This document shows positions 6,602 through 61,217 of a stretch of DNA of 64,000 nucleotides, one piece after another. Below the pieces are notes generated by a model. The model was not told where the DNA came from. It worked only from the letters and a program-made list of their open reading frames with translations, and did not search any database. Numbering within the stretch: position 1 is the stretch's first letter; every line of letters starts with the position of its first letter. Source of the DNA: Tribonema minus (Eukaryota; Sar; Xanthophyceae; Tribonematales; Tribonemataceae); the NCBI GenBank assembly GCA_017506865.1, contig JAFCMP010000049.1, positions 310,001 through 374,000 on the forward strand, in the 5' to 3' direction. Position numbers and translations under genes: made by a program.

Positions 6602-9600
6602 AGCAGCAGAGGAGTGTGTGAACGTTGTGACCAGAAAGCGGCTGCACTGGCCAGAAGCATTGCAGGAGTGGTCGGCAGACTGCAGTGCGAGGTGCGCTTT
6701 GTGCTTCGGCGCACGCAGAAGCGGAAACCTGCGACGCGGCAGTTGGACTCATAAACAAACGCCGATGTATGCGACGGCGCAACCCTACCTATGAGTGAGC
6801 GCTGTACTACATGCAGCACTCTGAAATAGTTTGCTGTGCCACGTGACGTAGTGGAGTCGATAGATGCTAATTGTGGATCACTTTGAAGCCATTGCTGCTC
6901 CTCCGCCTGTGCAGGCTCTCGACAGTACACACTGAATGGCGCCACTGCATGTTATCTGACATCAACTACGTATGCTGCTTTAGACATGCAAAATCACACA
7001 ATGCCCTCGAGAAAATGATGACGTTTGTGCGTTGACAAGCTCGTAACGCACAGGTCATACATTCATTGCCGCAGTCTGCAGTGTGCCTGCGTAGGCCCTG
7101 GCTAGTACATGAACACACATGCAAGGATTTGCAACGCTCCGGGTTGTATGTTGCAAGGATGGCTCAAGCTTACTCAGCTCTTGCCTTCCACGGCTAACTC
7201 AGGTTGCACCAGCGAAGGTGCAGTCGGCCTCCGTCAAAACCACAAACTTTCAATGATTCAAGATTGGGTCACCCGGTGCAAAGATAGTAACTGGAACGCT
7301 CTCACTTGTTTATGTACATACATGTTGGCGCCACTGCGTGTTTGCTGACATCAACTAGCCATCCTTGTGTAACCCCCCCACCCCCTCCCCCCCACTTGCT
7401 GCCGCCCCCGCGCTCCCACAGTCTCTTCCCTCATGTATTCAGGGATCGTTTTCAGCAGAACGGCCGGGCAGGATGCGCCGTATAAGCGCCCCTTTTTGTC
7501 GGTCCTCGGCATCAACACGGCCCCGGAGGTGGTAGAGTACCTTGTCAAGGGCGGCGCGCTGGAGAAGTCGTTCTTGCACGAGATGCTGCACTCTGTGGGC
7601 ATCGGCAACAAGTGGCCAACCCCCGCCGGGTGCGGCAACCTCGAGCTGTGCAAGGCCACGGTGGAGAAGGAGGTCGACGCGGACGCCGAGGTCCGCCAGC
7701 CAATACCGTACACGCCCGCGGGCGCCGCGGCGCTGTGCAAGGCGGACGAGATCTACCGCAAGGAGTGCGCAGCGTCCGAGTGGTGCACGGCTAGGAACGG
7801 CGACATGCCGCTGCTCGTCGGTGAGTGGGCGCCAGATGATGGCTGCGTCGCGAGCAAGAGGAGGTCTTTCGCAAGTACGCCAACTTGCTGCTGGCATGCA
7901 TGGTTTAATGGCAGCCGAACGGCCAAATTATTGATTCACCTCTTGTTGCCAGAAGTGCGCGGCATCCGAATGGTGCATGGCCAGGAACGGCGACGTGCCG
8001 CTGCTCGTCGGTGAGTGAGCTCCCGAGGCAGCATCTGCTGAGCATAATGCTTTAATCTCTTTTTTGATGGGGGTTGCACGACGACGCATTTGGCCACACT
8101 GTGGCCCACACAAGAATGGCGTATTTGGGGCGCATGTGGCTTCCAGGAAGAGTGTTGCACGGTCAGAAATGACGACATGCCGCTGCTCGTCGGTGAGCGA
8201 GCGCTGGAGTCGGCATTCGGTGAGCATAATTTTTCTCTCCTCGACGGTGCCGCTGAGTGCTCACAGTACACGCGTCTTGCCGGTGCTCGTCGGCAAGTGA
8301 GCTCCAGAGCGAGCATGTGTTGAGCAGTTTTCATACTTCTCGAAGTATCTGATTTTGACGCTGCCGCTAACCGCCGGTAGTACTCTGCAACCGCCTAGTC
8401 ATCCTTCGGGTTTGCGCGAGTCTCCTAGGCCCTGTTGGTGAGCTGCCAGTTACGTCTGCAGCTGCCATGGCAATGTGCTGGTGAATTGGCAGTAGTGGGC
8501 ATTGATGGAGTGCTGCTGAGCCTTCACGCTCAGGATGCGAACCAGGGTTTGTGACGTACTGAGCTTTGTGCAATTTGGCGTGAGCATGGCATCTGCATGT
8601 GAGCGTACCACTACACAAACGAAGGCTGCGCACACAATCATGCAGTGCAACGTGCTGTGATTGCCAAGCCCGCTTGCTGACATTCGGCGCGGCTTCCAGT
8701 GCTGGCATCGCTTGCCAGTGCATGCGTGTGCTTGTCAGGCTCAAGACCGTGCTGATCATCGCATGCTGATAGTTTCATGTAGGGTTAGGGTCAGGGTGAG
8801 TCATGTGCATCAAGAACTCCATGCTCCTGTCAATCATATCATGGCTAACTGCGTTGCATCTCTGTTCGACGTTTGACATATCTGTTAATGTCGTAACTGA
8901 GGAATCAGCTACCGGGAGCGCGACATTGCTTGCTGACCTGCCTCTCTCCCCCCCCCCCATGCCCCCCTGCGCATTGCAGAATCAGCGGCTCCTGCCACCA
9001 AAGACGATCTCAACTTTGGCAGGTACGTATGTACGCATGGATGTATGTATGCATGCACGCATGTATGTATGTACGCATGTACGTATGTACGCATGTGTGT
9101 ATGTGTGCATGGACGCATGGACGCATGTATGTGTGCATGTATGTACTTACATGTATGTGTGCAGTATGTATGCAAGTATGTATGTAATTAATGGTACAAT
9201 CGAACTTCTGCCCTCAATCGCAGTAACTGCGCACACTGGCCCGAGGCGCAGTTGCCGGCGGAGATCATATCCACAAACGCCGCCGGCAAAAAGCCTTTTG
9301 GAGGCGCTCGTGGATTCCTTACAGCCGTCACAGCTGGAGCTCTAGACGATTTGGGTTACGAGGTGAGTTTTCATGCTCAGCAGTGCATAAACATGTTGCC
9401 CTTTGTTGCATTGGCTCTCTGTCGAAAATGATGATGACCGGGCATACCTAATGCTCAGCAAGCGGGTTACCCTTTGTTGCATTGGCTTCATGCCAGAAAT
9501 GACGATGACCTGGTGTAACTAATGCTCAGCAGACACGTGAGGTCTGCTATTCCGCCACTCTATGCATGGGCGAGGGCTCTGTGGTGCTTGCATGATTGGG

Positions 9601-12577: not shown

Positions 12578-12763
12578 TCAAGCTTCTTTGAACGCCCCTT
12601 GACAAGTGCGGGCCGGATCATCACCAGATGAGATCACCAACCGACACCTGCATCCCTCGTTTGACCGCGTCATTGACACTCTTAATGCGCTGTGCTTTGC
12701 GAAGGCTTCTTCTACCACCTTTTGCGCTAGCTGCAAGTTACGCAACCGATCCAATCTCGGCAT
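12578..12763 (-). other. Protein-like minus-strand reading frame, unassigned
   Basis: A 61-codon open frame begins MPRLDRLRNLQLAQKVVEEAF and is charged and amphipathic, unlike most chance frames nearby. It ends in a TGA at 12578. No neighbouring exon in matching phase was found and I do not recognise the family. It could be a relic of a mobile element or chance. Confidence 0.2.
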
Positions 12764-16309: not shown

Positions 16310-17342
16310 GTTGAAGGTGATGCTGATGCCGGGCGGTGGGGTGGCGTCGGCTGGGCTGGTGCTGCGCCTGCTGGTGCGTTATGCGGGTGTGCTGCGCAAA
16401 GGTTACTATGGAGCGCAAACTTGACTTGCGCGGTGGCACTGGGGTTAGCTTGAAGTAGGCGAGCCGGCGATGAGCTGCGTGCTGGTGGAGAAGAAGCTGC
16501 GCTGACCCGCGTCGTGTCGTTGCCGTCGATGCCGAGCCTGCTGGTCTGCTGAGTGTGTGTGTGAGAGAGAGTGTGTGTGAGACAGAGCCAGGCGGGCGGC
16601 CTTTTTAGAGAGGGGAGGAACATCCTTCGATGAGTAACGGAATTCATCCTCGTGTGTGTGACACACCATCATTGGCGGCAGCTTCCGACTAAGGGCGCCG
16701 AAAGCTTCTTTATAGGCGGTCATGACGGTGCTGTCGGAGTGCCGTCAGCGCATGCAATTATTACTCAACCAGAGCTGGGTCCACAAGGATGGTGCAGCGT
16801 CGCCCGGCTCGTAGCGTTTGCGATTGCGCGTCAGCTGGCGATGCCGGCCGTCTTCACGTGTGTGTCTAGACGTCGTTGTCTACACTCTGTTTGTAGTCCC
16901 GCAAAGAAGGTATTCCGATGTTGGCGCGAGTAAATTCCCGACACATTCTTGCTCATCTCCGACTACGTCCACGGCTTGGTTACACGCGGCTTGCGTCTCC
17001 GGAAAGCGTGTACGCGGCGAGCGCACCTGAGGAGCGGATCCACGCTGGTCTGTCTGTGTTGGCCTCGCATGGCACACGGTGGCCGCTTCTTCTCGAATAT
17101 GCGGGTGCGGAGGGGCAGAGTATGACAGGGGCCTTTGGCATCGACAAGCCATCGGTGTCGCCGTGCTGAGGTGCAGTGCTTGTGGATGCCAACACGATGC
17201 TTTCGCGGCGCGGCACGGCAGAGTCTACGCCGTCGCGGGCATCATCAGAGGATGTCACAACCCTCAACCGTTGTTCGATGATGATCAGCACTTGCACTTT
17301 TGCCAATCTGTTCGGTGTGTGGTGCTGCGAATCTCGAGATCC
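16310..17342. promoter_or_regulatory. Divergent upstream region between two paralogous genes
   Basis: The two Cys-rich/EGF genes are transcribed away from this ~1.03-kb segment, so it must hold both promoters and 5' UTRs. Visible features are a GT/GA simple repeat at 16552-16588 and a short palindrome GTGTGTGACACAC at about 16653. No clear TATA box or shared motif could be fixed by eye. Joint regulation is an inference from the head-to-head layout. Confidence 0.5.
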
Positions 17343-20300
17343 ATGAGGCTATTGTTGATATTAGCAGCGCTACGAGCCGGCGCGGTGCAGGCCTCAGTCG
17401 GCCTCACAGAGCTCCTTGCTACGGCAGCAGCAGATGCAGTCTCTGCGACAGGCCTGGATCGTTGCGGGGCCGATGGATTGGGGATCCTTTCAGCGGACCA
17501 AACAACCTGCTGTCCTGCAAGGTTCGTAGGCGCGATTGCGTTGTGCGGGTGCGAGAGCTGCGTGGTCGTGAATGTCGCAAAACAGCTGCTTTGGTATTGA
17601 AGCAAAACTTTTTGGGTCTGTATCTTTCCGCTCGCCCAGCTGGCAGCTGGCAACTGGCAGCTGGCATTGATCTCCGTTGCATGATATGGTAATGTATCAT
17701 TGACAGCGCGACCACTGTCTGTCTCGCATCTTGGTCTTCATAAGTGCATGTCGATGTCTGCGAGTCTTGCCAAAAGATCTTCTGACATCAACTACGTAAA
17801 CTGGAGCAGTTGGCTGAAGCGGATTGGCAACTGTATATGTCTGACTGCACTATCTGCTAACATACAGCTATACAATCGCAGGTGCGAATGGCCGCAAACA
17901 TCGCAAAGTAGCAGCTGCCTCTGGTGTTGAAGCAATTTTTGGGTTTTGGGTTTGTACTTCTAGCAGAGCTGGCAGCTGGCAGCTGGCAGTGATCTATTTT
18001 GCATGATATGATAAATTATTATGGAGAACGCAACCGCTGCGTCTGTCTTGCAAACTTAGTCTCCACATGTGCATGTCTATGTCTGCGAGTTTGCGACCAG
18101 ATCTTCTGAGATCAACTGAAGCAGACAGAAGCAGTTGGCTAAAGCGGATTGGCGACTGTCACCGTACAGGTCTGACTGCTCCACCCGCTTACATGCGATA
18201 ATACACTCACAGGTGTGGAAAATGCGGCGGCGCGCACTGCGCCATTCGCTTTCACGGCAGCGCTGACTCCTGCTGTCAGATGAACATTGCCGCCAAGGCA
18301 ATGCCCTGCGGCATACCCCCGTGCACACGTTTCTCAAGCCTGCCTGGCTCCGTAGTCTTGGCACTGGAAGTGCAAGAGGCTCTCAAGGCGCCTCCGAAGT
18401 GCCAATACGAGGAGGATCAATGCGGGGCACGCTGGAAAACTGGCGCCGATGAATACAACCCGGTGCAGCAGACGCCCTACACCACCTGCTGCCAGGGCGT
18501 GGTGTTCGGCCAAAGTGCCTGCAAGGTGAGTCGTGTCTGACTGTGTGCTACACACCACATTTAAATGTTGATATATCGAGCAGAGATCTGCCCCATTGAG
18601 CAGAGATCTGCCCCATCGCTTTCGAGCATTGGTGATATGCAGAACTGCTGCCTATGCGTCAGGACTTCGCTTACCAAATTATCCAGCAAGTGAAGTGGCC
18701 AACGCTTACTGCAGATTCATGTGCATCGCCACTTGCAATTGATAAAAAATTAGAGCAGTTTGTGTTGCGCTGCCGCCTTATGTTCAGGCTTGCCAGTCCA
18801 GCCAGCTACTACAGTTGTAGTGCATGTTACAGCAAACGCACCTCCTTCTCAAGCCTGCAACTGTGAAGCTTCACCTGCTCGCTCGCATGCTCCGCAGGCA
18901 CTGCCCATCCAGAGCGATAACACATGGGGCACCGCGTGCTTCCCATTCAACGACAAAAACTGTCTGAATGGCAACTTGGAGTGTGAGAAGGAGATCTATG
19001 CATTCACGCCCTTTGGCTCCACGCGCAATCAAGTGTGCTGCAAAGTAGCGACTCATGACTGCGTTCAGGACCCGGACTCCAAGCACTATGGCTCAATGTG
19101 AGTGCAGAAGGCTATCCATTTGCAGGCAGCACGATAACACTGGTAGATTCGTCCAGACCTGCTAGTCGTGTCGCGTAACAAGAACTTAACCTAGTTGTAC
19201 AAGCGTGCGGTGATAAGCGTTATTGCAGAAGAAAGCCTTCCAGCTCGCTGTGTCGTGAGCGCATTGCACCCAGATGTCAATTGCATAGTCCATATATAAG
19301 ACTCCTAGAGCGTTTGTTAACTTGCGTAATCTGGTGATGAGCATATGGCAGCCCTCACAATTTCTGATGTCAATGACGATACATCAACGATTGTGGTTTC
19401 AATCATCGGTTAGGCGCACGCCCAGTCTACTTACTTGCCGACCTTCATCCAAACTAAATTCTTGTAGATGCACTGCATGCCCTCACAGAGCAAACTCTAC
19501 AACCTCAATTCTGCCATTGCCATGACGCATGCTATAAGCTTTTGTCACACAAGCGCACAAGACTAGACTACCATGGCCTTTCGAGGATGATGTCGTGACA
19601 CGAGTCCTGCAGTTGCCATGTTGTGAGCACGCATGGTGAGATCTGCATGCGAGAAATTGCCAATATCTAAGCTTGCTTGTCATCCGTGAACTGTAATGAA
19701 GTGATGCAGGAGGTGATGGGCTGCTTTAGTACACGAACACAAAACGCAAATGATGGGCTCATGTTGTCAGGCTGCCCAATTTATTCTGGTGGGCAGACTG
19801 GCGGCAGCGTGCAGCACAGCAATCAACAGCAGTGCCCGGCTTTTGACAGGAGAGACTCGCTGGTGTTGTTGCAATCAACGTCATGCATCCGCATCCCAAG
19901 AGAGTCACACAGAAATGATGTTGCCGAGCACATGCTCTTGAACTGCTGCCAACTGAAACGTGTGGTATGCAATGTTGGCTCTGAGCACCATCTCTACACT
20001 CTGCTCCGCTGCCCTCGCCAGCTGCGTGGCCAGGGTCCAGTGCGCCAAGGGCCAGGACGCCTGCGGCCGCAGCAAGAAGGCCGGCTCCATCCTGCAAACC
20101 GCGGACAACACGTGCTGCCCGTGCAACACCAAGTGCTACACAATCGACACCGACGGCGGCGGCTACAAGACCAAGTGCCTCGACTGCGCGGTGCCGTGCG
20201 GCAGAGACTACGTCAACAAGCCCGGCATTGACACGCAGTGCTGCCTGCCGCGCCAGACGTGCATACCGTCCTTCCACGGCGCGGCGGAGCCCGACACGAC

Positions 20301-42300: not shown

Positions 42301-45300
42301 AAAGGTACGGTAACCACCATACTGAGGTTACAGCTGCAGGTTCCAACAAAGGTTGCACAGCATGAAATGGGCGATGCCACTTGCAGTTTTTATCTGTGCT
42401 TGCAAGGTCACATGCTGGTCATATCAGTGTCGTTCACTTCATGGTCATTGCAGCAGTGGTTTGGCAGTAGTCAAGCCTGCCCTGATGTTCCAGCAGCACA
42501 GCAAGTGAGAGCGACAACACACCAGAAGTGAGATCCTGCTATCATCCAGCTCAGCCACACGGGCAACTTGTACTCAACACAAGTTGAGCTGGACTTGTTT
42601 GTGCAGTCACCAACAAGAACCTCCAAGTAGCTGGTGTGGCTGCACTTGATGTTAGGAAGAACCACCAGGTGTTCGAATGCTGGGCCTTGGGGTGCACTGA
42701 CACTCTGCAATTATTGTTGTGTTTCTGTGTCTTCTGACCGCAGACAACAAGGGCGTGGAAACGGTGCACGTGGAGGCGCTGGGGGAGACAAGGTGAGACA
42801 ACAGTGCTCAGCACAGATGCTACGTGGATCTCAGAACAGAGGCATATGAGGGTGTCAGCCTGTATCACAGTGCAGACACGCGGAACAGTATGCACAATAC
42901 CTTCTATACAGGCATTACAGGCATTGCATGCTGCCTGATTGCAGCACAGGTGTGACACTTTGGCGCACGGTATGCAGTACTGATGTGAGCTTATGATGTT
43001 GGACATGGCTCATATGGTCACTGCAGCCTGGCTGCATGAGGCATGCCTTTCTCCAGAGTGACGGCCAGTGCACTGGCGCAGGCTCACTGACATGTGCCCT
43101 GCAACACAATTATTTGACTGATGTTCGAAAGAGCAAACGGCACATGGCCGTTTGGATCATTATTGGCAGGCAGTCGCTTTGGCTCTCTCTTTGCAAGCTG
43201 TGCAATAATGATTGCTAACTGAAAAAGCTGGAGTGCCTTGTGTTTGTGCCCAGCTGCTCAGTAGCGCCATCAGCACTGTAGCAGTGAAACACCTGCTCCT
43301 TGCGCAGAAAACTATACATACCCATACAGCCTGACACCCACTCCTCACACCCTGCTTGCGACTGCAGCTGTGCGAGCTGCATCACATACATTGACGAGGG
43401 AGTGGCGTATGTGGGCAGCACTGGTGGCGACTCGCAGCTGATCCGGCTAATGGAGACCCCGGGGGAGGATGGCTCTTATGTGGAGGTAAACGCTGTTATT
43501 AAGCAACTTGCGCCTGCTGAGCATCAGCACGCATTTGCAGGTGCAGGTTAAGATGGTTTCATCAGCGTGGTAGCAGGAGGCCAGCATCAGACTGATCAAA
43601 CGCCAATGCTTGAAAGCCCAATGCATACCAGCATTATGCAGCTGCAAGCAAGTGCCTACTACGCAGGTTGTATACTGCACTCAAACGCAAGATCGCCATC
43701 GAATCATATTGCTATGATGCAGTTTGCTTTTTTTGGACCACCGCTGTGCCTGCGACCTGGGGCTCATTTTGTGACGCACGACTTGTGAGCTTGCCCTGAT
43801 AGTCTCGGCAAAAAGCAGTTTATGAGCACCACTGCCATCATGGCAGTAAGTACGAGGACGCAATAGTAGATGCTGCACCTGCATGCCGCTTTGTCTGCAA
43901 TGTACAGCTTTCAATGATTTGCCTCTTGGTCCTTTGTTGTGACTGTCAGGTGCTTGAGTCCTTCTCCAATCTGGGCCCTATCGTGGACCTCTGCCTGGTG
44001 GATTTTGACAAGCAAGGGCAGGCACAGGTACATTCGCACACTTGTGAATTCCTTTTGCTGGCAAGTGCCTCAGCTTTAACTTGTTGAAGCGGTGAGCCCC
44101 CCCCCCCCCCCACATTCTCACACATTCATGAGCATGATCTACCTGTGTAACCTCCAACTACTGGCAGGCATGACGTCGTCTTGTCTTGTTCTATCTTGCC
44201 GCGAGCATCGAGATGGAAGCGTGTGATGCAGGATCCCAATGTGAACCCATCTCCAGTTTGAATGCCTTGGTCTGTCTTTTTCCACTAGCAGTGATGCTGT
44301 AAACAGGGGCCTCGACCAAGCAGGCCTTGTATCTGCCGTGCTGAATCACTGCACCAAACGTTGGTTCTGATTTTCTCAGCATTCACTGGCCACTCATGCG
44401 TGTCATTTGGCCTAGCGGGCATGTAGGAAGCAGAGAGGCAACAGCGCAATGCCGTTCCGCTCTCCTTCCACCTTACTTGTGTTGGGCAGCCATGCATGCA
44501 ACGTTGAAGAGCAGTGTCAACGGTGCAGTGCTGATGGGGTTTCCCTTGCAATTGGGCACCTGCTTATGTACTTTGCAGGCTGTCACCTGCAGCGGCTGCT
44601 ACAGGGATGGATCGCTGCGTGTCATTCGAAATGGCATCGGCATCAACGAACAGGTACTTCAATGAGCTGCAGTTATCTCATGCCGTGTCTGGCATCGCAG
44701 CGGGTGCGCAAGCTGCGCAGTTATTAGATCAGTTTGCTGCGCACTTGCATGGCTTGTGACGCCAAGTGATGTGCAGTCGCATGTTGTTCGATGCAGCAGT
44801 GACCTGAACGCTCAACAGGGGCAGAAGTGCGCATCATTCAGGGGTTGCATTTGCTGTGTGTCTTGCGTCGCTGTGCTGCCATTATGCGCATCTGAAGTTG
44901 TGGACACCGCAGCGGCAGACACTTCATTGTTCAAGCAGCCTGTGCTTTAGCCTGTGTCAGACACCGAGCAACTGCTACCTATGCGTCAACCGAGAGTCCG
45001 GCATTGTGCGGACTCCTGCTGTTGATGCCGCAAAACAACAACTCAAGCTCATGGAAGTTGTTTTTGTCACAATCAACAGCCATGGCCATCGTGCCCATGC
45101 TCGGGCTCACATTTCCCGTGTTGCACCTCCGCCTTGTTGTTGCAGGCGTCCATTGAGTTGGAGGGCATCAAGGGCATGTGGTCACTGAGGGAGGGGCATG
45201 CCGCGCCCTTTGACAAGTACCTAGTGCAGTCCTTCATTACAGGTACAGGAGTTGAAGTTTCATTTGCCACCTGCCTACTTGGCGCCGTTTGACCAATACC

Positions 45301-48300
45301 TAGTGCCGTCCTTTATTACAGGTACTGGAGTCATAGATCAATTTGGCACCTGTCTAGCTCGTTCAACTGCAACATATTTACGGGATGCACCATAGCGAGC
45401 TGCAGTGAGTCTGCAGTCCTGTTGCCTTTTATACGTCACATTGAATGGCGCGATAGAAGCGAAGTATAGCGGCCTTATCACTGGCATCCAATTTCTCATT
45501 GATGGGCATGTTCTGATGTTGCAGAGGCTGGTATCGCCCTTTATCATGAAGCCATTGTGCTCCATGTCTGCATTATTACAGTCTCGTGCAGCGGTGCAGC
45601 CCCCTGGAACGCATTTGTGCTCCCTTGTGCACCACACCACACTAGCAGCCGACACATCTGGACATGAGTACACAATGCCCATCACACGACAACGCAAGCA
45701 TTCTATGGCATTCTCGTGTTGACATGTCACACGCCACGCAACAGTAAAAGTGTCTTTGCAGCGCCTCAGCTTTTTTTTTTGTCATCACTCTTCTGTTGAC
45801 ATGCCTCCAAACAACGAGGCATTTTGATGGCAACGTGACTGTCCTCTGTGCTGAATTGGTGTCAACATTTGCGGTCTTGCATAATGCTGCTGTGAAATTG
45901 TGCAAGGTTGATGGTGTCAACAGTGCTCGTGACAGTCCTGTACTTCAGTAGCTTTTTGGTGCCGCACCATGAATGGGCATTTGACTACCCTTTCTGTGTC
46001 AACTGGATGTAGCATGGTTTAGTCTATACCTTTGCATACGTGCATATATCCACTTTCGTACTCACCTAACAATACATGATCTTGCGCGTTGCCACCCCCC
46101 CCCCCCCGCCTGTTGTTGCTTTTGCGACTCGTCTGCCCAGCGCAAGCACTGTGCAAGCCTACGGGTCTCAATATTGCTTAGCAACCTTGTATTTCAGTAG
46201 GTACTTTGAGCCTTTGACTGGGAATTGAAACCTCTCCGTGTCAACTGGATGTAGCAAGATGTACTGCCGTCCATGCTCCCCCCACCTCGGTACTCACCTG
46301 TTTTGCGCACTCCTCCCCCCTCTCTTTTTGCTGCACTTGCAACTCGTCTGCCCAGAGACACGCGTGCTGGCCATCGAGGATGATGAGATGGGAGAGGTCT
46401 GTCAGCAATGCCAACATGTTACTGAGCGTGATCCACCATTTGTACATCCGCACACTCAAGAGCATGCTGTCGTGTTGACTTGCCATTGTTGTTTCGGCAA
46501 GAAAGCCTACTGGTCTGGTTGACAGCATGCAATATCTGGCGCACCAAGTCGATGCGATGTGGCAGCAGACTTGCAACGCACCAATGTCGCCTGTCAACTA
46601 CCACCCCGTGAGAGACTGGCTTGTGATCATGGCACCAAACTGAGTGGTGGACCTGACATGTGGCACTTGCTTCCCTTCTCATTGGCCCTGGGCTGGTCTC
46701 TGGTTTTTGGCTCTATGTCTGCCAAACTGCTGAAAACGTTGACATCCATTCCTCCCTTGTGCGAGTGTTGTAACATACTTTTATGTCAATTTGATGGTAT
46801 TCGGCGCACTTGATTAGCCGTGATCTAAAGTACCATCATCAAGACGGGAGTTTGGCGTACGTGCTTTGTGCCCAGCGTGTATGCCTCCGCATTGTTGTTT
46901 ACGCCCCCAATACATTAAAATGACTCCCATGCTCAATTTGTGTTCTTGCTGTGTTGGTGGCAGGTGGAGATGAAGGGCTTCCTTGGTGGACGCACCATCT
47001 TCTGTGGCAACGTCATCGGAGACCTGGTAGGTTGCTGCAGCTACCGCCATGTGCTTGCATCAAGTCTTGGACCATGTGCAGTATTGCGACGATGAGGTTG
47101 ACAGGTGCACTAGCTACATGACGCTGACATATGGCCAACTGCTGCTCGTATGAGCACTGTTCGCTGCGGGCTTGTCAGAGCAGTGCAGCACTAACGCGAT
47201 TGCGCACTCATGGGGAGGTGCGGCATGCAGTCAGTGTAGGACTACTTACTACCATGCAGACATCAGCAGCGCTGCAAATCAAACCGCAATTATGTAGGGG
47301 TATCACATTGCAGCACTGCGCAGCGCAACAACCATCACTCAGCATGGCCCTGTTGGTCCATGGAGGCTGGCGTACATCTTAGCAGGCAACAATGCCTCCT
47401 ACATGACTTCTGTTAGAATGTGGGCCCACGTGGGCTAGCTCTCTGAGCAGAGCAGACACAGCCATGACACATCCTAGACCCAGATACTGGTGTTGAAGGT
47501 GGCTCTGATATGCTGATGAGCAATCAGTAGCCTTGGGAGGTGGGCATGCCACGGCAGCCGGTGCTGGCTGAGTGAACCACCTGCGCACTCTGGCACCTCC
47601 TCATGGTTTCCCTGTCTCCATGTGCTGGTGTTCACATTGAAAGCTGAGCGGCTCTCATGATTGCAGCAACTGCTCCACCACTACATCACTGAGGCTCGCC
47701 TGGGTCGCATCTCACCAGTGCACAGTTCAAATTTGCACCTGTCAAAACGTTGCCTGCTCCTTGTGTCTCGCTTTTGCGTCTCTTGTTTTGCCAGATACTT
47801 CAAGTTGCGGCGACGGGTGCTGTGTTGCTGGACAGCCGGACGCTGGATGTGGCTTCCACATGGAACCCTCCCGCACCACTGTCCATCATCGTCGCCACTG
47901 CAAATTCCAGGTGAACCTGTGTGTCAAATGTGTTCGTGGTTGCGCTTTGTGTCAGCATGACATGCGTTGAGTGGAGGTCTCGCATAGTGTGTTGTACTGT
48001 GTGGGAACCGAGGCAGTCACACAAGCGCGAGGACGTGTTCAGAGTGCGCACTCTGGTTGCTCAATGAATGAAACACGAATTAAAAGGTCGTTGAGCTCTA
48101 GGTGACAAGGGGTGGTTAGCCGCAAGTGCCTTCCACCAAAAAGAATGCTAGAAGGCTCGGAATGGCCATTATTTGGCTTTTTAAAGCTACTGTTTGCTGC
48201 ATCCTAAAACGTCTGTGATGGTTCGAGACTATACATTTTGTGTGCGTAATCAGATGTTATGCTTAGAAGCATTTGTCATCTAGCGGTTCCAAGTACTTGA

Positions 48301-51300
48301 GAGTGTCACGGGACCTTGGCACCTTTGAGGATTCAAAAGTCTGTCGAGACGATGATTAACGAGGGACAGTGAACACGTTATTATTCCTGCGTGTCCCTGA
48401 TGATGTATTTATGTCTTGCTCTTGTGTGTCGCTCACAATGTTTTCATGACTACGCCGCCTTGACTGTGCAGGCATGTGGTGCTGGCCTGTGGTGGGGGCA
48501 ACCTGTTCCACCTCGAGGTAAGCGCTTTTGTGCTAAAGTCCATGTGTCAATAGTGTCTTCAATATCCGTCAAGCACCGTAGTGGGTGGTGCACAATCAGT
48601 ATCGTTCATCAGCCTCAGTGAAGTTGAGAAGGATGCGCCTATTGCACGCAATCGTGTGGCACGAGCTTGTTTGCATGTTTGTATGTATGCGTTGTGTGCC
48701 TGCAACCAAGGTTGCAAGCAAAGCTTTACTGGCACAGAGTGCAAGACTACCCATCATTGACTATCACTGAGTGCGTACTGCGCACATGCAGATCCGATGT
48801 TTGAGTACTGCAGCATGTATAATAATAAGAGAGGCATGTGGCGTCGGCGATGTTTGCAGAGGGCATACATCCGTCTTGTGATAATTCTGTCCTTGAGCAT
48901 TTGGGCACTTGCGTTTGCAGCTACAGTTTGTTGATGTTGTGGACTCTATTGATCACTCTTGACACAAGTCATAGTATATGTGAGCCTGTATGGAACGTGG
49001 GCTGGCACGCAAGCTTGCGACTCCACATTTGCTACCCCCCTCTCACAATGTCCAAAGTTTGCTAGCACTTGAATGACAGAAAGGTCCTGTGGGCATTGTA
49101 TGCAGGTGTTGACAACCTTTACCCCCCCCGTATGGCCATACAGGATTGGTGCCATTTCCAGTTGTTGTAATTACGCCATGGAATTCACGACCATGTTGCG
49201 GCATTTCTCAAGTTGTCCATGTAACACATTTAACCAGGGCTCACTGGGGCATCTTCAACTCATTTGTGCAGGTGGACCCGGCTGCGCGCAGCCTTGCTCA
49301 GCGTGCAGCCGTGCAGCTGGAGCATGAGATAGCATGTCTCAGCCTCAACCCCCGGGCCAACACCGCGCCTGCCGAGGCAGCTGCCGAGCAGGCTCTGGGG
49401 GACGACATGGCAGTTGACGAGGGGGGCGGGGCTGCTGCGCGCCAGGTATGTAGGTATCTATATAAGCGTGCGGCTGTGGCACCAACACAAACATGCGCAT
49501 TTGTCCAAGTCGATGGGCGCCGCTGGGCTTGAGGGTATGGCTTCATGCGAGGGGGGGGGGGGGGCTGCTGCGCGGCAGGTATGTACGTATCTACGTGTGC
49601 GGGTTTGGTGCGGGGCACTTTTTTGCGTGTGTTAAAAGCTGATGCGTGCTGCTGGGCGTAAGGGTGTGACATGATGCATGGCAGTTGATGAAGGGGGCGG
49701 GGCTGCTGCGCGGCAGGTATGTAGGTATCCGACAGCGCAAAGCGCCACCACCATGCCAGAGGTGGACGACCAAGCAGACACAAGTCACGAGAGCATGTGT
49801 TGCTACGGATGAAGTGAATTGGGAACACGATGCAAACCCTGTCCGAGGTGGCGCGTCAGTGCTCACCAAGGACCCAACCTCAACATGCGCTGAGCTCTGC
49901 TCTGTCAGCATCTACATGCATATGCGTGGGCGGATGTGGGGCACTTTTTGCGTGTGTTGACAGTTGATGCGCGCTGCTGGCGTCAGGGTGTGACACAATA
50001 CGCTGGTGGTTATGCGTCGTGCTTACAAATATCTGATCATTGGGTCTTTGTGCGCTGTCCATTGTGTAGTGATGTGCACCATGGCAGTCGACAACACAGC
50101 AGGTGCCTATTGCAAATCTGTGTGTGTGCCTGCTCCTGGGTGGCAACATGCTTGCACATGTGTGTTTACTCCGGAACTTCAAAACATGTCCGCGATGTGA
50201 TCTATGGCAGTTGCTCAGCTCACACCATGTTGCTTTGCTTGTTCTCTTGACATGATTCATTGGCACTTGCAGCCCGGCAACCCTGCTCAGCTGGACCACA
50301 TGCTGGCAGTTGGGTAAGTCGAACCGCTAGAAGTATGCTATTAGTGAAAGCTTTGCTACAGGTTCTGTTGCATACTGGAACCAGTGTACGATGGCACATC
50401 AGTCAGTGTGCAGGGTGCTTCTTCGAACTAGCTCAGGAGACTGTGTAGGCCTATGATACAGAAACGGTTCTGACCTGCATTTGGGGGGCCTTGACTGCAG
50501 AACTTGAGCATCACAAGCAATAGCGGTCCCCAGCTGCCCTGCAGTACAGCACCAAAGTCAGGGTGATGCAGAGCACAAGTGCGCTGCAAAGCAACCATTC
50601 CTACTCTGGCATGAAAGACAACAGCGCACAAGCATGCTACCATGCACGTTCAATCACCCATGTTGCACGACAACACAGTGCGCTGGATACCGACATTGAC
50701 CATCTTTCAATGTTGACAAGCATGCTAATAAGATCTTGATGAGCAAGTTCTCTTCTTACCCATGTTACATGACAACACAGTGTGCTGGACACCGAGTTCA
50801 CTTTATTGATGCTGTCGTGTGTGTTGCCTGTCTGCGCTGCCCAATAGGCTGTGGACAGATCTGACTGTCAGGCTACTGAGCTTGACAGCGGATCTAAGCG
50901 AGCTGGCGCGTGTGTCACTGGGCGGCGACACACAGGCACGATCGGTGCTGCTGGTGACGCTTGGCACACAGCACACGCTGCTTGTGGGCCTCGGTGATGG
51001 GTGAGTTTTTAATAGTGCACTTTGTGAATCTAATTCTCTGATGAGCAGATGAATGCGCATTGTCAGTGCACAGTCAGTTTGACTGTGGCTGTCAGTGCAC
51101 AGTCAGTGTGACTGTGGTGGTTGGGTGAATAGAAGCCATATCGAGTCATTGTGCAGTCAATGCCCTCGTGTTGGTGCTTGCAGCGCAGCACACTCTGATT
51201 GTGGGCCTCGTCGATGATCGCCCCTCGCCCCTTGTCCATGTACCACAATGCAGACTGCAGTAGAGTGAAGCAAATGACTTCACAGCATGCGCTGCACACA

Positions 51301-54300
51301 CCTGCTGACACCCTTGAATACTCATTTACAGCCCGCAATAATCAATCATGGGCGTCAGAATGCTGGGCAGCTACCAATGCTTGGGTCATAAGTTTTTTAA
51401 CATGCCCAGATGACTGTCAGAACAGTCTTGTCAGTAGCATGGCAGCACATTGGTGCATAGAATAACGTGCAACCCTTCAACTGGCGCATCTTGCATAGCC
51501 ATAGCGCTGTATGCCTGTTCGGACAATGTTTCTCTCAATGTCATGCACACCCTGTCCGACTGCTGATGACTATGCGTTCTCATTTGTCGATTGCTTTGGC
51601 TGTCAGGCATGTGTACTCCTATCAAATGGAGGTGGCATTAACAGACGCGCCACCTGCGCTGCTGCCGCCCCGCAAGGCATCACTTGGCACACAGGCAAGC
51701 GTGTCCGACATTAGCTGGTTCAAATCGTGACAAGCATGTTTGCATGTTGTTTTGATATTCAGGTCAATCACAAGTGATATTGAAGTGTGTTGATGCAACT
51801 CTTTTTTTTAGGCTCGTCATTTGTACCTCATTAGCGGCGTGCCACAGCCTCATGGCTTGTCCTCCAAACTCCATTGATTGATGCACACGATGTCACGAAG
51901 CACCTTGCACGCTGTGAGAATCTTAGCACCTGTTGCAAGCCTCCTGTACTTCAGATCACATAATCTATGCAGAGTCAAAACACAAGCTCATCTCAAATCT
52001 CATGTGCTCTGTGCACTCACCAAAACACACGCCGCTTTTTGCTGCTGGCAGTGCCCCTTCCATGCTGAGATACATAGAAGTACATACCTTGCTGACGCCT
52101 ACCTACCCACTGTTGCGTGCACCTGCGGCATTTGAATAATATTGCGGTATGCACTGACATTGCACAAACCACAAACGGTGTGCGCGTGTACATCTGCAAA
52201 TGGGGTACCAGGCCTCACTGTGTTTGGACCTGCATCATCATATGCCATGATCAAATCGTTGCACGCATTTACATCGTGCGCAGGGGTCAGTACGTGTAGG
52301 TTCACATACTCAAAGGGGGTCTACCCTCCTGCCATGATCAAATCGTTGCACGCATTTGCATTGTGCGCAGGGGTCAGTACGTGTAGGTTCACATGCTTAA
52401 AGGGGATTCACCCTCCTAGCCAAGCTCATCATATATATATGTATTGTGTTCCCGCTGCCCTGCTGTCTGCAGCCCATCGGCCTGAACTGCTTTGTCAGCA
52501 ACGGCTCTGCGTGCGTGTTTGTCACGGGCGACCGGCCCACAGTCATGTACAGCCGTGCTGGCAAGGTGCTCTACTCCAGTGTCAACATCACCGAGGTACG
52601 TTAGCAAAGCGTGCGTGCACGCGTGGTGTACCTCAAACATCGTTAGCACCGTTGTGTTCCCTGAATCGGCATCCGAGGCAGGCTTTTTGGCATGGAATAT
52701 TGTGCTTACATGGTATTTGCTCTTCGTGTCAACTCCCATGTGCTCTTAGAGGCCAGGAGCTGACGACGCGATAGGCAATGGTTTGGCATTCGCTTAGTTT
52801 GCTCCAGTATTACTTGGGTATGCCCAGCATTTGAGAGCTGCTGTTTAAAATCTCAGGTGTGTCTTGTTGTTCAAAGCCAGGCAGGTCCTGTCCGACCCGT
52901 TGTACATTGTGAAAGCGTGCAGTGTACGAAGGCAGCAGCGGAGTCATTGCCTCCGCAGCGCAGGTACATAGCGCCTGTGACCGCGTTCACTACATCCACT
53001 GGCAGTGCCTGTGCAAGCCTTCTGCAGTCTTCAGCACACACGGAGTCAAGCATGATTGATCATTGCAGCAGCACCATGCACCATGCTCTGCACATCTGCC
53101 ATATTCAACGTCCTGATGATGATGATGTTTTGATCTCTTTACGCAGGTGAACTCCGTCTGCACTTTCCACTCGGAGCAGTTCCCTGAGTGCCTGGCTCTG
53201 GCCAACGAGGGCACGCTGACCATTGGCACCATTGATGGCATACAGAAGCTGCACATTAGGTGATGACCCTCCCCTTGCAGACCTATACTTGCATACCTAT
53301 ATTCTGAACTTGTGAACGTTTGAACTGTCATTTGTAATGCGTGTGGGCCTGTGCAGCATGCGGGTTATCCACCTCAGGGCTGTGCACTCGTAAAAATAAA
53401 ACCTCAACGTGCGAGGTATTGCATGCGTACATTCGTGCATGCAGATGCCGCAGCTTGGTTTTGTTGGTCAGTAGTCTGACGGCGGACCCAGCCACAACAC
53501 GCTTCAGCTTGCTCATACGAAGACTATCATTTGTAAAGCTTGTGGCCTGTGTAGCATGGGGGTCATCCACCTCAGGGCGGTACACATATGAAACTCAACT
53601 TGAGAGGTTTTGCATGACTGCTGTAGGTGCCTGCATAGTAGCTTACTGTGTAGCTTCATGTATTGAGATGCTGCAGCTCCAGGCTGTTGTTACCCTAGCC
53701 TTACCCCTGATCCGGCTACAACAGGCTTCAGCTTGCACATACAGTATGCGTAAAATGTCAATCAGTGATATTCATTTCTCTGACGAACCTTCTGTTGGTG
53801 TGTTTGTCACAATGTCATATTTGCAGGACGATCAAGCTGGGCGAACAGCCTCAGAAGATTGTGCACCACGAGGTACGCCATCAACACACACATGCAGTCA
53901 ATCACTGATGACTGCTCTTGCAGCGAGCTACCCACCTTTATCTGTCATGCCGCTTTGAGTTTGTTGTTGAGAGGCTGTCGTACAGCATAGTGGCAGCAGC
54001 ACTTACCAGCAGCAGATGATCAAAATCTACCAGCGGTGCCTTGGCATGTTCGGGTGGTGAATTGCATTGCGTGCAGTACTGACATCATGTGTAATTCTGA
54101 TCTGCAACAACTTCGTGTACACAGACATGCCACGTACGCGTAGACAGAGGCCAGGGTCCGCACCTGCTCTGTTGTACTTGAAGTTCAAGTACGTTGCATG
54201 GCGGTTGACTGGTGTTTGCGCTGCTGTGCACTGCCGCAGGGGGCGCGCCTGTTTGGCCTGCTGACGTGCCGAGAGGAGGAGGATGGAGATGAAGTTGGCT

Positions 54301-57300: not shown

Positions 57301-60300
57301 GCAAATTGATTGCATTGGAGATAGTTCATGGACGCAAGCCTGGCAAACTGCTTGCCTTGGCATGATCATGTTGCAGAGCTCAGGCTGAAGGCGCAGGTGG
57401 CAGCAACTAGGCTGACAGCGCGGCTGGGCACATGTCATGTGGACCAACAAACAGCGCGCTTCTGACAGTGTTTGTCTTGCCACACTGGGCCTCACCAAGT
57501 CTACCCGATGACATCATCGTGCTGCAGATCACGGAGGTTGCACGGGACTACAGCGCCAATTGGATGACAGCGGTGGAGGTGAGCACTGTCATCCTACACC
57601 ATACAGCTCAAAGTTCTACCTTGATGTTGAAGTTTGTGAGCAGGGCTGGTGCAGCTGGCCCAGTCAACACGTCAGCAGGCCTTTGTATGTAAATGTGGCT
57701 CCATGCTGCGCTGGTTTACAGGCATGTCCCCCTCTTGTGCCGGCAGGCAGACCTATGTTTTGCACCGGCGTGGACTGGAAGCATTGTGGCATTGCTTGTG
57801 GCCCAAGCTGTGTGGTATTTGCAATCACCTTATACTTTGCAAAACTTGACAACAACATCGTTTATTGACTCACTTGACAACAACATTGTTTATTGGTCCC
57901 CTTCTGGCTGCAGATCCTGGATGATGAAACATTCCTGGGAGCCGAGAACGACTCCAACCTGTTCACCGTCAAGCGGGTCAGTAACATATCACTTGGAGGT
58001 CAACACAGCATAATTAAAACTAGCTGCGTTTTGCTTTGACATCGCTGATAAGGCAACTTGGTATGCATGTGCGTCACGCTTGCTGGCCTGCTGTTGCATT
58101 GCTGTAGTCTAGGTATACGGAACCTCATTCACAAGTTTATACAATTTGCAATATTGTGACCTGTGCTTTCCTCCGTCTGTTCCTGGGCCTACAGAACACG
58201 GATGCGACCACTGAGGAGGTCAGAGCTCGCCTCGACTTGCAGGGGGAGTATCACTTGGGCGACTTTGTCAACGTCTTCGCAACGGGGTCACTCGTCATGC
58301 AGGTGAAGCAGCGCTGTGATGCCTGGTAGCTTGAATGTGTTTGCAACAGGGTCACTGGTCATGCAGGTAAAGCAGCGCTGTGATGCCTGGAAGCTTGAAT
58401 GTGTTCACAACAGGGTCATTGGTCATGCAGGTAAAGCAGCGCTGTGATGCCTGCAAGCTTGCTGATTGTTGGTGACCTGGCTGCTTCATGCCCAGAACAA
58501 TAGTGTGCTGCTTCATGGCCTAGGGGCTGGCAGTGGTCCTTGCCTACAGTATAAGCGATACCGTTCAGGCGATTGATCAGCAGCTCGCATAATCATACTT
58601 CTACTTGCATTTCTCACTGCTCTCGCGTCAGGTGCTGCGAGGCTGTCGAACCACACTGTCAACAACTTTTTTTCAGCACGCAGGACTCATCTGCAACTTT
58701 TCCAGAGAGCTCATTACACGCCTTATGAACCTCATGCACCCTTTGCACATGCCGTGTTTGCAGCCCGTTGATGCTGACAGGAAACGCAAGGAATTCGGCG
58801 TGGCGGGCGAGACGCGTCTCTATGGCGCTCTGAGCGGTGCTGTGGGCTGCATCATACCCATAACCAAGCAGGTGCGCATTGCTGTTTCGTGCATGGACAT
58901 CTTGCGCCAGCGCGATTGATCATAGGCTGTGAACTCGTTGCATCATACCCATCACCAAGCAGGTGCGCAGTGCTGCGTTGTGCATGGACATCTTGCGCCA
59001 GCGCGATTGATCATTGGCTGTGAAATCGTTGCATCATACCCATCACCAAGCAGGTGCGCATTGCTGCTTTGTGCATGGCCATCTTTCGCCAGCGCGAGTG
59101 ATCATTGGCTGAGAAACTGCTTGTATGGTGAACAAGTCAAGGTGCAAATTACATGTATGGTCCAGATGCTTGAGTGGTGGTATCCGAGGCTGGCCGTGTG
59201 TTGATCGATCAGGGTCAGTTGGGTACGCTCACTACAACGCTGCACATATTTGTATGCTGCCCTGGACAATGTTGTGGAGGGCACGCTCTTCTGGGGAGGG
59301 GCAACTTGGCATACTCTCTGCCACAGCCCAGGCTGAAACTCAGTGTAAGCGGTGTTGCGGGCTGCACCACTTTATGGCCTGTGCCTGACCAATACATACC
59401 TTTTGTCAAAGGACACCATGCCGCATTGCCACAGTGGAGTAAGATTTGTGCAAAGCTTTTCATATTACACTTGGACATTCTGCAGTAGCGGAATGGCCTT
59501 ATAGGGATGACTCGCGCCCATGAACAATGGTATAAATCACTACCTGCAGACGTTGGCTAAGGCATGAGACTGACATCCCGCCCCTTGTTGTGTTTCTTAG
59601 GCGCATGAGTTTTACAGCCGCCTGCAGCGTGCCATGACGCGTGTTGTCAATGGCATTGGAGGTCTCAGCCACAAGGAGTGGCGGGCATTCTGGTACGTTG
59701 TGTCCATTTGGTGACAGTTTGTTGCGCGCTTCTTGGCTTTGCTATCATGCTCATGCAACGCACTGGGGTTTACAGTAGCCCACTGCACGCTTGAGTGCTC
59801 ATTGAGCCACTTGCGGGGTACTGCATCGCATGACACGGGCATATTTTAGGCTCTTGCGTCGAGGCTGTGCAAGTCACCAGGATACTTGAAGGTCTCTTCA
59901 CCTGCAGTGCTGTCAGCAGTGCCTGAGGCCAAAAGGCCATGTTTGGCACTTGGAATTAGGCGGTTGTCTTCCTATCACAAGCGCTGACTGAGACGGTGTG
60001 AATCACTCTGAAAGATGTGTCAAGCCTTCTGCATGGGTCCCACAGGGGCGCTAGCCGCAGTGGGGCAGATACAACAATCGCTGGCCGTAAACATAAGAAA
60101 ATAGTTTCCTGCAGCTCATGCACGTACAGCTTTGTGTGAATGGTATGCGCAAAATCTGCTGAATCACATGCTGCTAGTAACGTGTTCGACTTCGGCAAAT
60201 CAAACACCTGACATTGTTCATGTAGAAGTAGTATGCCTGCGTCCCCCTGTGGTAGTGCACCAAATGTGTTATATTGCTATGGTGCGCCGTGGTTATGTGG

Positions 60301-61180
60301 TTCAGCACCTTCAGGTGGAACATCATAAACTGCAGACGCCATAACTTCGTGTTAGCGCACTTTCCTCATTTGGTTTTTGCTCGACCTCTTGCGGTGCAGC
60401 AACCAACGAAGAATTGCAGATGCGCGTTGCTTTGTTGACGGCGACATCATAGAGACATTCCAAGATCTGCCAAGGCAGGACCAGGTATAGCACCCTACTA
60501 CAAGCTCTCTTGCAACTGTGCATCGTCCTGACAGCCAGATCAGTTATTCTTATGTCAGAGCGCATCATTCTGCCACACCTGTCATACTCAAATGTATGTC
60601 GATCATGCAAGGAGACAGGTACTGAGAGCCAGGCACACCTTGAGTCTTGAAAGTTGCCATTGAGCGTTCGGAATATCTTGCTGCCACCACTGCGTCCTGG
60701 TTGTTGTACCGTTGCTGACTGCCGTGCCTTGTGCATGGTTAGTTAGTGCACTTCAAGTCCAGCACCGCACACCCGACACATGTTATCTCTGGCACCATGC
60801 TTGCAGTCACCCCTGCAACGCACGTGATGCACTCGCCTTTAGCAAAGATGCCTGCCGTCATGAGTCAAACACAGCGATCTTGTGCACTTATATATGGATA
60901 CCCACTGCGTCGTCAAATGCGCTCATTGGTGGCGCAATTTTGCCACTGCAATGACGCAAATGCTCCGCAGGACAAAGTGCTGCGCTTCATGGTGGACGAA
61001 ATGGCATCGGAGAGCATACCCCCACCGCCCGGCACAGCCCCCCTGGTCCCCCCCGCAGCCCCCGAAGAGCCTGCGTCGCCAACAGAAGATGCGGGCGCGG
61101 CGGCTGCGCACTGGGGCGTCGTTAGCATGACCGTGGAGGATGTGCTGACGCGCGTCGATGACATGGCGCGCATGCACTAG
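36353..61180 (+). CDS. DDB1: DDB1, damage-specific DNA-binding protein 1 / CUL4 ligase adaptor, 39 exons
   Basis: Exons: 36353-36433, 37172-37219, 37647-37765, 38271-38304, 38830-38964, 39787-39867, 40495-40575, 41138-41200, 41660-41770, 42202-42304, 42744-42792, 43368-43485, 43950-44027, 44579-44653, 45146-45242, 46356-46396, 46964-47026, 47795-47910, 48472-48517, 49272-49445, 50273-50313, 50848-51000, 51607-51694, 52473-52595, 53147-53259, 53827-53872, 54240-54325, 54765-54885, 55324-55371, 55776-55913, 56619-56692, 57022-57094, 57528-57578, 57914-57976, 58195-58302, 58764-58871, 59601-59692, 60400-60484, 60971-61180. The sum is 3534 nt (1177 aa; human DDB1 has 1140), and every phase agrees. 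Landmarks in family order: [111 protein letters not shown] and the terminal VDDMARMH. Known role: three beta-propellers (BPA, BPB, BPC) and a helical C-terminal domain, bridging CUL4 to DCAF substrate receptors in nucleotide-excision repair and proteolysis. Oddities: an acidic EEEDGDE segment, a Pro/Ala-rich insert in the last exon, one GC donor (51695), and many duplicated splice junctions. Confidence 0.96.
38930..39105 (+). repeat. DDB1 exon 5 donor duplicated
   Basis: The exon end GCGCTCTACCTCTACGAGGG, then CGTGCTCAA(G), with donor at 38965 is copied at about 39055-39085 with donor-like AAT|gtgagg at 39086, 121 nt downstream. The intron start (AGGAGC(G/A)TCT..TTGAAGTT) is included. The preceding exon sequence is not copied further upstream. 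Confidence 0.9.
40589..40700 (+). repeat. Two-copy tandem repeat just after DDB1 exon 7
   Basis: GCCTGCCGTGTGGGAT(G/C)AGG followed by CAGTACCC(G/T)CTTCAGA occurs at about 40589 and about 40670. It starts 14 bp after the exon 7 donor (40576), so the junction itself is not included. Confidence 0.85.
41563..41660 (+). repeat. Intron 3' end duplicated before DDB1 exon 9
   Basis: Two ~51-bp copies share ACTGAGTGTGATG(C/T) and TGATGCT(A/G)TGCTTG (from about 41573 and 41624). The second runs directly into the functional acceptor at 41659. Confidence 0.75.
42003..42240 (+). repeat. DDB1 exon 10 acceptor duplicated, upstream AG lost
   Basis: The functional acceptor GCAG|ACGATGATCACAGCTGTG (exon starts 42202) has an upstream copy GCGG|ACGATGATCACAGCTGTG at 42087, 115 nt earlier. 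About 80 bp of intron (GGGGC(G/A)GTGACA(T/C)GCCATT and TTCTTGAACA) is also copied. The copy differs by an A to G change that destroys the AG. Confidence 0.92.
45208..45335 (+). repeat. DDB1 exon 15 donor duplicated
   Basis: Exon end TTTGACAAGTACCTAGTGCA, then TCCTTCATTACAG|gtacag (donor 45243), recurs as TTTGACCAATACCTAGTGCC, then TCCTTTATTACAG|gtactg (donor 45322), 79 nt downstream. The following intron bases (TTTGCCACCTG versus TTTGGCACCTG) are also copied. Confidence 0.92.
45925..46356 (+). repeat. Intron 3' end with polypyrimidine tract duplicated before DDB1 exon 16
   Basis: Two copies (about 45925-46141 and 46160-46355) share GT(A/C)..TTCAGTAG, GTGTCAACTGGATGTAGCA, GTACTCACCT, a C-rich run and a final ACTCGTCTGCCCAG. 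The second AG (46355) is the functional acceptor; the first (46141) keeps AG but is followed by unrelated sequence. Confidence 0.85.
49408..49730 (+). repeat. DDB1 exon 20 3' end and donor in three copies
   Basis: The exon end encoding [13 protein letters not shown] with CAG|gtatgt (donor 49446) is followed by copies at about 49537-49578 (donor 49579) and 49678-49716 (donor 49717). Shared tails are GGGGCTGCTGCGCG(C/G)CAG, then GTATGTA.GTATC. Intron 20 therefore offers three near-identical donors. Confidence 0.92.
51695..51696 (+). other. Non-canonical GC splice donor of DDB1 intron 23
   Basis: Exon 51607-51694 ends CACACAG followed by gcaagc, a typical GC-AG donor with a strong exon match. 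The protein frame ([10 protein letters not shown] to [10 protein letters not shown]) requires this boundary, and no GT lies in the right phase nearby. Confidence 0.85.
53346..53750 (+). repeat. Tandem ~198-bp duplication in DDB1 intron 25
   Basis: Units from about 53346 and 53544 share GGCCTGTG(C/T)AGCATG, ATCCACCTCAGGGC, TGC(C/T)GCAGCT and CACGCTTCAGCTTGC-like blocks. It does not touch a splice junction. Confidence 0.8.
55073..55165 (+). repeat. 15-bp minisatellite in DDB1 intron 28
   Basis: About six diverged units of GTGATGCACTTACAA lie 190 bp after the donor of exon 54765-54885. In one frame they read as Asp-Ala-(Leu/Phe)-Thr-Ser repeats, but no phase-consistent exon is formed. Confidence 0.8.
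58280..58445 (+). repeat. DDB1 exon 35 3' end and donor in three copies
   Basis: The exon end GGGTCACTCGTCATGCAG (donor 58303) is repeated twice at exact 64-nt spacing: GGGTCACTGGTCATGCAG|gtaaag (58367) and GGGTCATTGGTCATGCAG|gtaaag (58431). AAGCAGCGCTGTGATGCCTG follows each. The two copies have donors at least as good as the functional gtgaag. Confidence 0.95.
58838..59110 (+). repeat. DDB1 exon 36 3' end and donor in three copies
   Basis: TGCATCATACCCAT(A/C)ACCAA then GCAG|gtgcgc occurs with donors at 58872, 58963 and 59054, at exact 91-nt spacing. CATGGACATCTTGCGCCAGC and a GATTGATCAT-type tail are repeated with them. All three donors are intact. Confidence 0.95.
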
Positions 61181-61217
61181 CGGCAGTGCTCAGCGTGACA
61201 TGGCGCGCATGCACTAG
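61158..61217 (+). repeat. DDB1 stop-codon region duplicated
   Basis: GACATGGCGCGCATGCACTA then G (stop at 61178-61180) is repeated 37 nt later, ending in a second TAG at 61215-61217. (G/C)AGC(G/A)GCAG-type sequence follows both. The copy is in the 3' UTR. Confidence 0.95.

Follow-up and report, generated by a model that had tools for sequence, protein, structure and literature searches.

Exon-intron junctions of the xanthophyte Tribonema minus, a stramenopile, are copied into the introns that adjoin them. This copying is real and reaches beyond the 64-kb stretch of DNA that was analysed (bases 310001-374000 of contig C49, hereafter the window). Inside the window it resembles ordinary mutation, only at unusual density, while in two genes elsewhere, encoding a histidyl-tRNA synthetase (HisRS) and a P5A-type ATPase (P5A), the copies behave in ways that plain duplication cannot explain. 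The best combined explanation, to which we give about an even chance, is frequent short local duplication that is most readily visible at exon edges and lengthens introns. According to this scenario, T. minus genes would gather short local duplications, with units mostly of ~60-330 nt, which probably arise when staggered breaks are filled in and their ends joined during repair. A unit straddling an exon edge would place a second edge and splice site inside the intron, and the outer, original junction would be the one that is spliced, so that the intron lengthens with no effect on the protein. In genes rich in duplications, the exon-derived part would outlive its intron flank, producing a sharp edge at the splice site, since the exon, being under selection, serves as an unchanging template; this would also make copies most visible at exon edges. 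The exon may also re-convert its own copies.

Local duplications, defined as ungapped direct repeats with a score of at least 20 and an offset of 18-600, number 45 in the window when sought with an ungapped repeat finder, as compared with 0, 0, 0 and 1 in four dinucleotide shuffles. The DDB1 gene (36353-61177, plus strand) was modelled by spliced alignment as 39 exons, whose numbers agree with those of the original prediction, separated by 38 introns of 218-1113 nt each. The deposited T. minus protein JKP88DRAFT_353064 has identical residues in the shared exons (81% overall), but this 1015-aa model is without several exons backed by the spliced alignment. Gene models other than DDB1 come from homology or from a small ab initio gene finder. 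The MRS2-like gene owes its identity to Pfam family PF22099 (E 2.9e-18), while 'protease' and 'Cys-rich' are names taken over from the original prediction, no Pfam family having matched either.

All nine donors that had been predicted to be copied into their own intron (five in DDB1, three in MRS2 and that of protease exon 4) were found to be so. In DDB1, the copies of the donors of exons 5, 15, 20, 35 and 36 are identical to them at 25-29 of 30 nt across the junction. The exon 5 donor (38964|38965) has a tandem copy at +121 with a flank identity of 0.82 (38930..39168), the exon 15 donor (45242|45243) a copy at +79 (45203..45356) and the exon 20 donor (49445|49446) copies at +133 and +271 (49406..49729), in which likeness stops ~13 nt into the intron. 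With two copies each, the donors of exon 35 (58302|58303) and exon 36 (58871|58872) form three 64-nt units (58270..58461) and three 91-nt units (58848..59120), respectively. One case beyond those predicted was found at the end of exon 22, of which only the exon part (48 nt at 77%) recurs at +217 (50952..51216, plus strand as for the other DDB1 features). On the minus strand, the MRS2-like donor at 30406 is copied 91 nt downstream (26/30; 30295..30438), that at 25761 is copied 85 nt downstream with the copy's GT reading TT (27/30; 25657..25785) and that at 32426 is copied 84 nt downstream (25/30; 32337..32452). The end of 'protease' exon 4 with its donor (7758..8326, plus strand), known from an ab initio model only, is present in three clear copies and a weak fourth. 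Copies lie at +190 (61/70) and +372 (52/70), and the fourth matches the third at 39 of 54 nt, its GT reading GC.

The acceptor cases stood in part. Among the three DDB1 acceptors said to be copied, that of exon 10 (42201|42202) is indeed spanned by an upstream copy at -115 (27/30; 42070..42229), in which the AG reads GG, whereas those of exons 9 and 16 are not spanned. Upstream of exon 9, a 51-nt intron-only tandem repeat (41556..41651) stops before the acceptor at 41660, and at exon 16 an intron repeat ends at the acceptor AG with no exon part (46093..46355; all on the plus strand). As for the acceptor of intron 1 of the Cys-rich gene, AG|GTG is found in both repeat copies (42/61), although this gene is without an independent model. 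The long repeat concerned lies upstream of the exon and runs from 17645-17884 to 17967-18215 with an offset of 322-331 (17645..18215, plus strand). The window contains two Cys-rich, EGF-like genes in opposite orientation (14960-16009 on the minus strand and 17337-20463 on the plus strand) that are apparently diverged paralogues, and their intron repeats could be dated by comparing the pair. The same class of duplication occurs over a stop codon, as had been predicted for DDB1 (61178-61180), where a 37-nt duplication is seen at 61159..61230 on the plus strand (61159-61193, offset 37, 91% over 35 nt). It also occurs within introns, examples being an 87-nt intron-only tandem duplication of the background class (52243..52422, plus strand), another of 73 nt that begins 13 nt after the DDB1 exon 7 donor (40588..40735, plus strand) and a third at 25015.

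Outside the window, one 10-kb stretch was sampled from each of 24 contigs (loci L0xx). One of them, L002 on contig C1, which is 2.45 Mb long with a GC content of 72% and long open reading frames (ORFs), is probably a bacterium from the culture and was omitted from later counts (ab initio junction cases, intron statistics, tract and telomere tests and the dispersed-element search). The presence of this bacterial-looking contig shows that the assembly is unclean, which would lend some weight to the idea that the copies are assembly errors stemming from collapsed or expanded haplotypes. However, where exon edges were compared, the copies were 0-25% off the exon, often with different flanks, and they lie in order beside their own edge, within genes whose reading frames are open, which makes an assembly error highly improbable. 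Repeated ORFs were noticed as well: a predicted ORF at 62775-63990 of the window (minus strand), partly common to L006 and L025, resembles a repeated mobile-element gene, and L015 and L021 have another repeated ORF in common.

The density of duplications across the 24 loci is very uneven, ranging from 0 to 44 per 10 kb (coding repeats counted), and no cause was found for these differences between loci. HisRS (L010; PDB 3hrk, E 9e-137) and P5A (L013; PDB 9jbx, E 2.5e-54) were selected because their loci are duplication-rich and their proteins recognisable, the P5A gene model having been aligned to its own predicted protein, a prediction that the PDB matches back. These two genes, together with single cases in the ab initio genes of L011, L017 and L024, bear out the expectation that the phenomenon extends past the window. 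Introns of at least 500 nt, which are 11 of the 13 in these two genes, contain copies of their own edges at 10 of 11 donors and 10 of 11 acceptors, figures that count exon-edge families, some of which do not cross the junction. With junction-crossing seeds, the corresponding values are 9/11 and 10/11. The nearest copies are 112-327 nt off and there are up to five copies per junction. A profile search of the genome for a chaperonin (CCT-like) family, picked before any result was seen, returned 56 exon-like matches, which were sorted by place into 10 gene-like groups. In four of these groups, neighbouring matches overlap by at least 25 profile positions, as judged from profile ranges only, namely on contigs C51 (52-88, 53-81 and 51-147), C5 (155-224 and 177-224), C135 (242-278 and 241-322) and C279 (24-87 and 57-103), as would be expected if exon edges were present there two or three times.

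Are junctions special targets? The claim that they are hit above intron interiors failed for DDB1 as well as for 200 ab initio introns, and held only in HisRS and P5A, by a margin that depends on the model. In a test that seeds exon and intron sides alike, the DDB1 24-mers that recur within their own intron amount to 7/74 at exon edges, as against 5/74 immediately past the edge and 36/541 in mid-intron, and exon edges have no clear preference over mid-intron. The 200 ab initio introns yielded 10 donor and 9 acceptor families versus 28 intron-only events. In both sets, the proportions of junction and interior copies are those that random placement gives. The test fails there because the repeat unit is long in proportion to the introns. 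We estimate that about four in ten random units of ~130 nt would straddle a junction in introns of ~500 nt, and that having one partner frozen in an exon roughly doubles the time over which a pair can be recognised. Purely neutral random tandem duplication combined with a visibility bias, in which neither conversion nor targeting takes part, fits both DDB1 and the ab initio introns. As a complete account, we regard this as rather unlikely. In HisRS and P5A, 24-mers at 16 of 20 exon edges have a second copy as compared with 6 of 22 windows just inside the intron. Taken at point estimates, this contrast goes beyond a two-fold visibility effect at P=0.003, but only at P=0.038 when uncertainty is carried along, and it exceeds a three-fold bias only at P=0.19, which leaves room for neutrality alone. 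So does the finding that second copies of mid-intron 24-mers are common too in P5A (55/152; 16/155 in HisRS). Junctions may thus play a special part in duplication-rich genes, but as a general rule this is unproven.

Simulations with frozen exons were run under 17 settings of random placement (10 + 7) and 14 settings with a three- or six-fold junction preference. Random placement fell short of the share of copied junctions in HisRS and P5A, which speaks against neutrality alone: it reached at most 0.70 of donors and 0.82 of acceptors, and this only with ~3-kb introns, while at a coverage and length like those of the two genes 0.23-0.53 of junctions were copied versus 0.91 observed. However, the settings with junction preference, which peaked at 0.73 of donors and 0.76 of acceptors, likewise fell short, which indicates that the simulation model is poor, and the shortfall counts against random placement only if the model is right. 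The random settings that came closest to DDB1 gave 0.12-0.15 donor, 0.07-0.12 acceptor and 0.10-0.20 intron-only cases per intron, as compared with 0.16, 0.03 and 0.29 observed. The surplus of donors over acceptors in this gene, 6 to 1, is not accounted for by the random simulation.

In DDB1, HisRS and P5A, exon parts of copies are 14-99 nt long, with medians near 40, and whole duplicated exons are absent from these genes but for two tiny ones of 17 and 19 nt. Two classes can be told apart. In the plain tandem class, to which DDB1 exons 5, 35 and 36 belong (units of 121, 64 and 91), the flank is duplicated as well, with an identity of 0.78-0.94. At exon 15, too, the tandem repeat covers the full unit. 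Six complete recent tandem units have L-d values from -6 to 3, with microhomology of 0-3 nt or none. The second class takes in many copies in HisRS and P5A, in which similarity covers the exon part and a few bases at the start of the intron, beyond which the sequence is apparently unrelated. The donor copy of HisRS exon 4 thus matches its exon at 49/50 positions with a flank at 0.53, the donor copy of P5A exon 3 at 66/73 with a flank at 0.59 and the acceptor copy of P5A exon 3, at -327, at 34/34 with a flank at 0.60, where the random level is 0.52. A plain whole-unit tandem similarity is absent in at least these three cases. More generally, copies whose exon part is at least 0.9 identical have a flank at or below 0.68 in 15 of 22 cases, copies for the flank and splice-site analyses having been found by an exon-part likeness of at least 75%, which favours the exon side. 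Since flanks are often at the random level beside near-identical exon parts, simple tandem units do not account for them, nor does neutral decay of whole tandem units give a conserved exon part next to an unrelated flank. The same asymmetry appears between copies within introns: in 32 intron-intron copy pairs, identity is 0.84 over the 24 nt derived from the exon and 0.60 over the stretch of intron origin next to them, although pairs from the same array are non-independent and one pair is reversed (0.83 vs 0.91).

A kept exon part beside an unrelated flank could arise if the exon re-converts its copy, if an exon edge is inserted together with unrelated filler or if the copy is under selection. 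In the second of these, 25-75 nt of an exon edge would be duplicated around unrelated filler or pasted in as a templated insertion, the flank never having been copied. This would be consistent with a likeness that ends 2-13 nt past the donor in several copies of HisRS, P5A and DDB1 exon 20, and with P5A exon 1, where two flank types alternate behind one exon end. However, it offers no reason for a break at the splice site, it is at odds with DDB1 exons 5, 35 and 36, in which the flank is duplicated too, and the fillers are not a dispersed family in the 24 loci; we consider it unlikely. A tentative and broader possibility, still well short of an even chance, is that exon edges seed their own introns repeatedly and that the copies are kept in step by conversion or selection while their surroundings turn over, so that almost all junctions of some genes become small arrays of splice sites and introns grow from their edges.

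Copying multiplies splice sites, as originally predicted, and the dinucleotide (GT/GC or AG) is retained in 34 of 40 copies. Splice dinucleotides mismatch at 9/80 positions, the copied exon at 110/960 and the ungapped intron flank at 256/560. Since the dinucleotide rate equals that of the exon part, this is what would be expected without selection for or against the sites. In 27 of 28 cases, a reading frame extended to a copied donor would meet an in-frame stop first, which would make regular use of such donors harmful and lead one to expect that the outer junction prevails. At exons 5, 15, 20, 35 and 36, the donors employed by the deposited DDB1 model are the outer ones. Differences between an exon and its nearest copy fall at third codon positions in 74 of 123 cases and are synonymous in 65 of the 121 classed, as compared with 0.46 (p 0.001) and 0.40 (p 0.002) expected if only the exon were constrained, both expectations being our own and the junction-level bootstrap range of the third-position share being 0.49-0.72. 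At the level of sequence, this third-position excess is a hint of constraint on the copies. It is also one of the points in favour of a third possibility, that selection keeps the copies as functional splice modules (alternative edges or poison sites). Mostly intact splice sites, and an exon part and donor that are kept while the flank turns over, even between the non-independent intron-intron pairs, would point in the same direction. Nevertheless, we consider such modules very unlikely, in view of dinucleotides kept no better than the exon part, copies that are partial exons whose use would mostly bring a stop, and a third-position expectation that is self-derived with a bootstrap range reaching down to 0.49.

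As predicted, DDB1 introns with a junction copy average 714 nt (n=7) and the others 526 nt (n=31; p=0.048), while those with any duplication average 633 nt versus 523 nt (p=0.11). Length and family statistics drop introns shorter than 120 or longer than 2500 nt, exon flanks below 20 nt and coding repeats, and thus retain five HisRS and four P5A introns. The 11 longer introns of these two genes span 579-1319 nt. Copies therefore seem to lengthen existing introns. No intron newly created over AGGT came to light among the cases looked at. They also put gene finders at risk, ab initio models having read copies as exons in MRS2 (30406 and 32426), L011 and L024.

Several candidate causes were rejected. 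Repair linked to telomere-type sequence was considered since such runs touch a few copy breakpoints and TTAGGG hexamers are abundant in duplication-rich loci (15 in L003, 29 in L010, 14 in L011 and 15 in L013), but duplication boundaries lie within 12 nt of TTAGGG at a frequency of 0.039 versus 0.045 after shifting (432 boundaries), and, of 54 control hexamers, 2 gave a higher correlation across loci than TTAGGG (rho 0.36, p 0.05). Poly-C/G tracts are near 15 of 240 duplications (6.3%), as compared with 7.4% expected. An offset of 1 modulo 3 to the nearest donor copy, a pattern noticed post hoc, is seen in 5/5 DDB1 and 4/4 HisRS cases but in only 1/5 for P5A, and other residues occur in L011, L024 and MRS2. 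No dispersed element serving as filler was found among the loci compared. As to intron content in general, telomere-type 9-mers (TAGGGTTAG) are the most enriched intron words, with 29 occurrences in 14 of 291 introns where 0.15 are expected, and form short interstitial runs (in L010, L011, L013 and L003, for example). Three other words, CAACTTCAA, ACTTCAAGT and TTGAAGTTG, occur at about ten times expectation in 12-16 sample introns each. A stretch of ~200 nt is common to two unrelated introns, at window positions 49746-49937, directly after the DDB1 exon 20 array, and in HisRS intron 7 (L010 938-1130; 66.7%, E 2e-13). An Rfam search over window positions 30000-62000 gave no match.

Intron growth and the origin of new splice sites are usually inferred from few cases. 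A genome with dozens of exon-edge copies at several stages of decay would permit direct measurement of the duplication rate, of any preference for junctions, of the choice among near-identical splice sites and of the fate of copies. Introner elements, which are dispersed families of like sequence, are another genome-wide process that shapes introns. In contrast to these, the T. minus fillers are not dispersed in the loci compared. No introner-like family emerged when 51 introns of DDB1, HisRS and P5A were compared with 24 sequences without L002: the 17 matches outside the own gene were mostly to one 80-nt family (from DDB1 intron 18) and to telomere-type runs. This dispersed family, ~80 nt long and located at 48062-48141 in the window, has matches in L013, L024, L009, L011 (two) and L017, and a weaker one in L010.

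In the literature searched, which was mostly open-access and had the T. minus genome paper outside it, no report of serial junction copies in introns was found. Related systems are on record. Break repair is known to produce small tandem duplications, and PMC8355091 describes how they form through fill-in by CST-guided Pol alpha-primase at breaks with 3' overhangs. Both systems have short units repeated directly in tandem, end to end, which makes this a candidate mutational route, although that account concerns breaks induced in human and mouse cells and nothing in it links them to T. minus or to splice junctions. Stwintrons (PMC8469720) likewise have more than one donor or acceptor in one intervening sequence, but they are nested introns removed in two steps, whereas the extra sites in T. 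minus bring exon sequence with them. In Drosophila, novel intron positions have been attributed to tandem duplication or sliding, with premature stops in all 18 introns (PMC2891723). Duplicated coding sequence with proto-splice sites gives extra splice sites there too, yet the seven cases described are within-exon duplications that led to new introns, while in T. minus existing junctions are copied serially. Tandem duplication is an established route of intron gain (PMC4974935, published in 2016 and citing Rogers 1989, Hellsten 2011 and Gao and Lynch 2009), and in the potato case presented there a short tandem duplication crosses an intron-exon boundary and takes its splice signals from the parent junction. 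There, however, one event produced a new intron, whereas the T. minus copies found lie within introns, not at both ends of one, and accumulate serially inside existing introns, which they lengthen.
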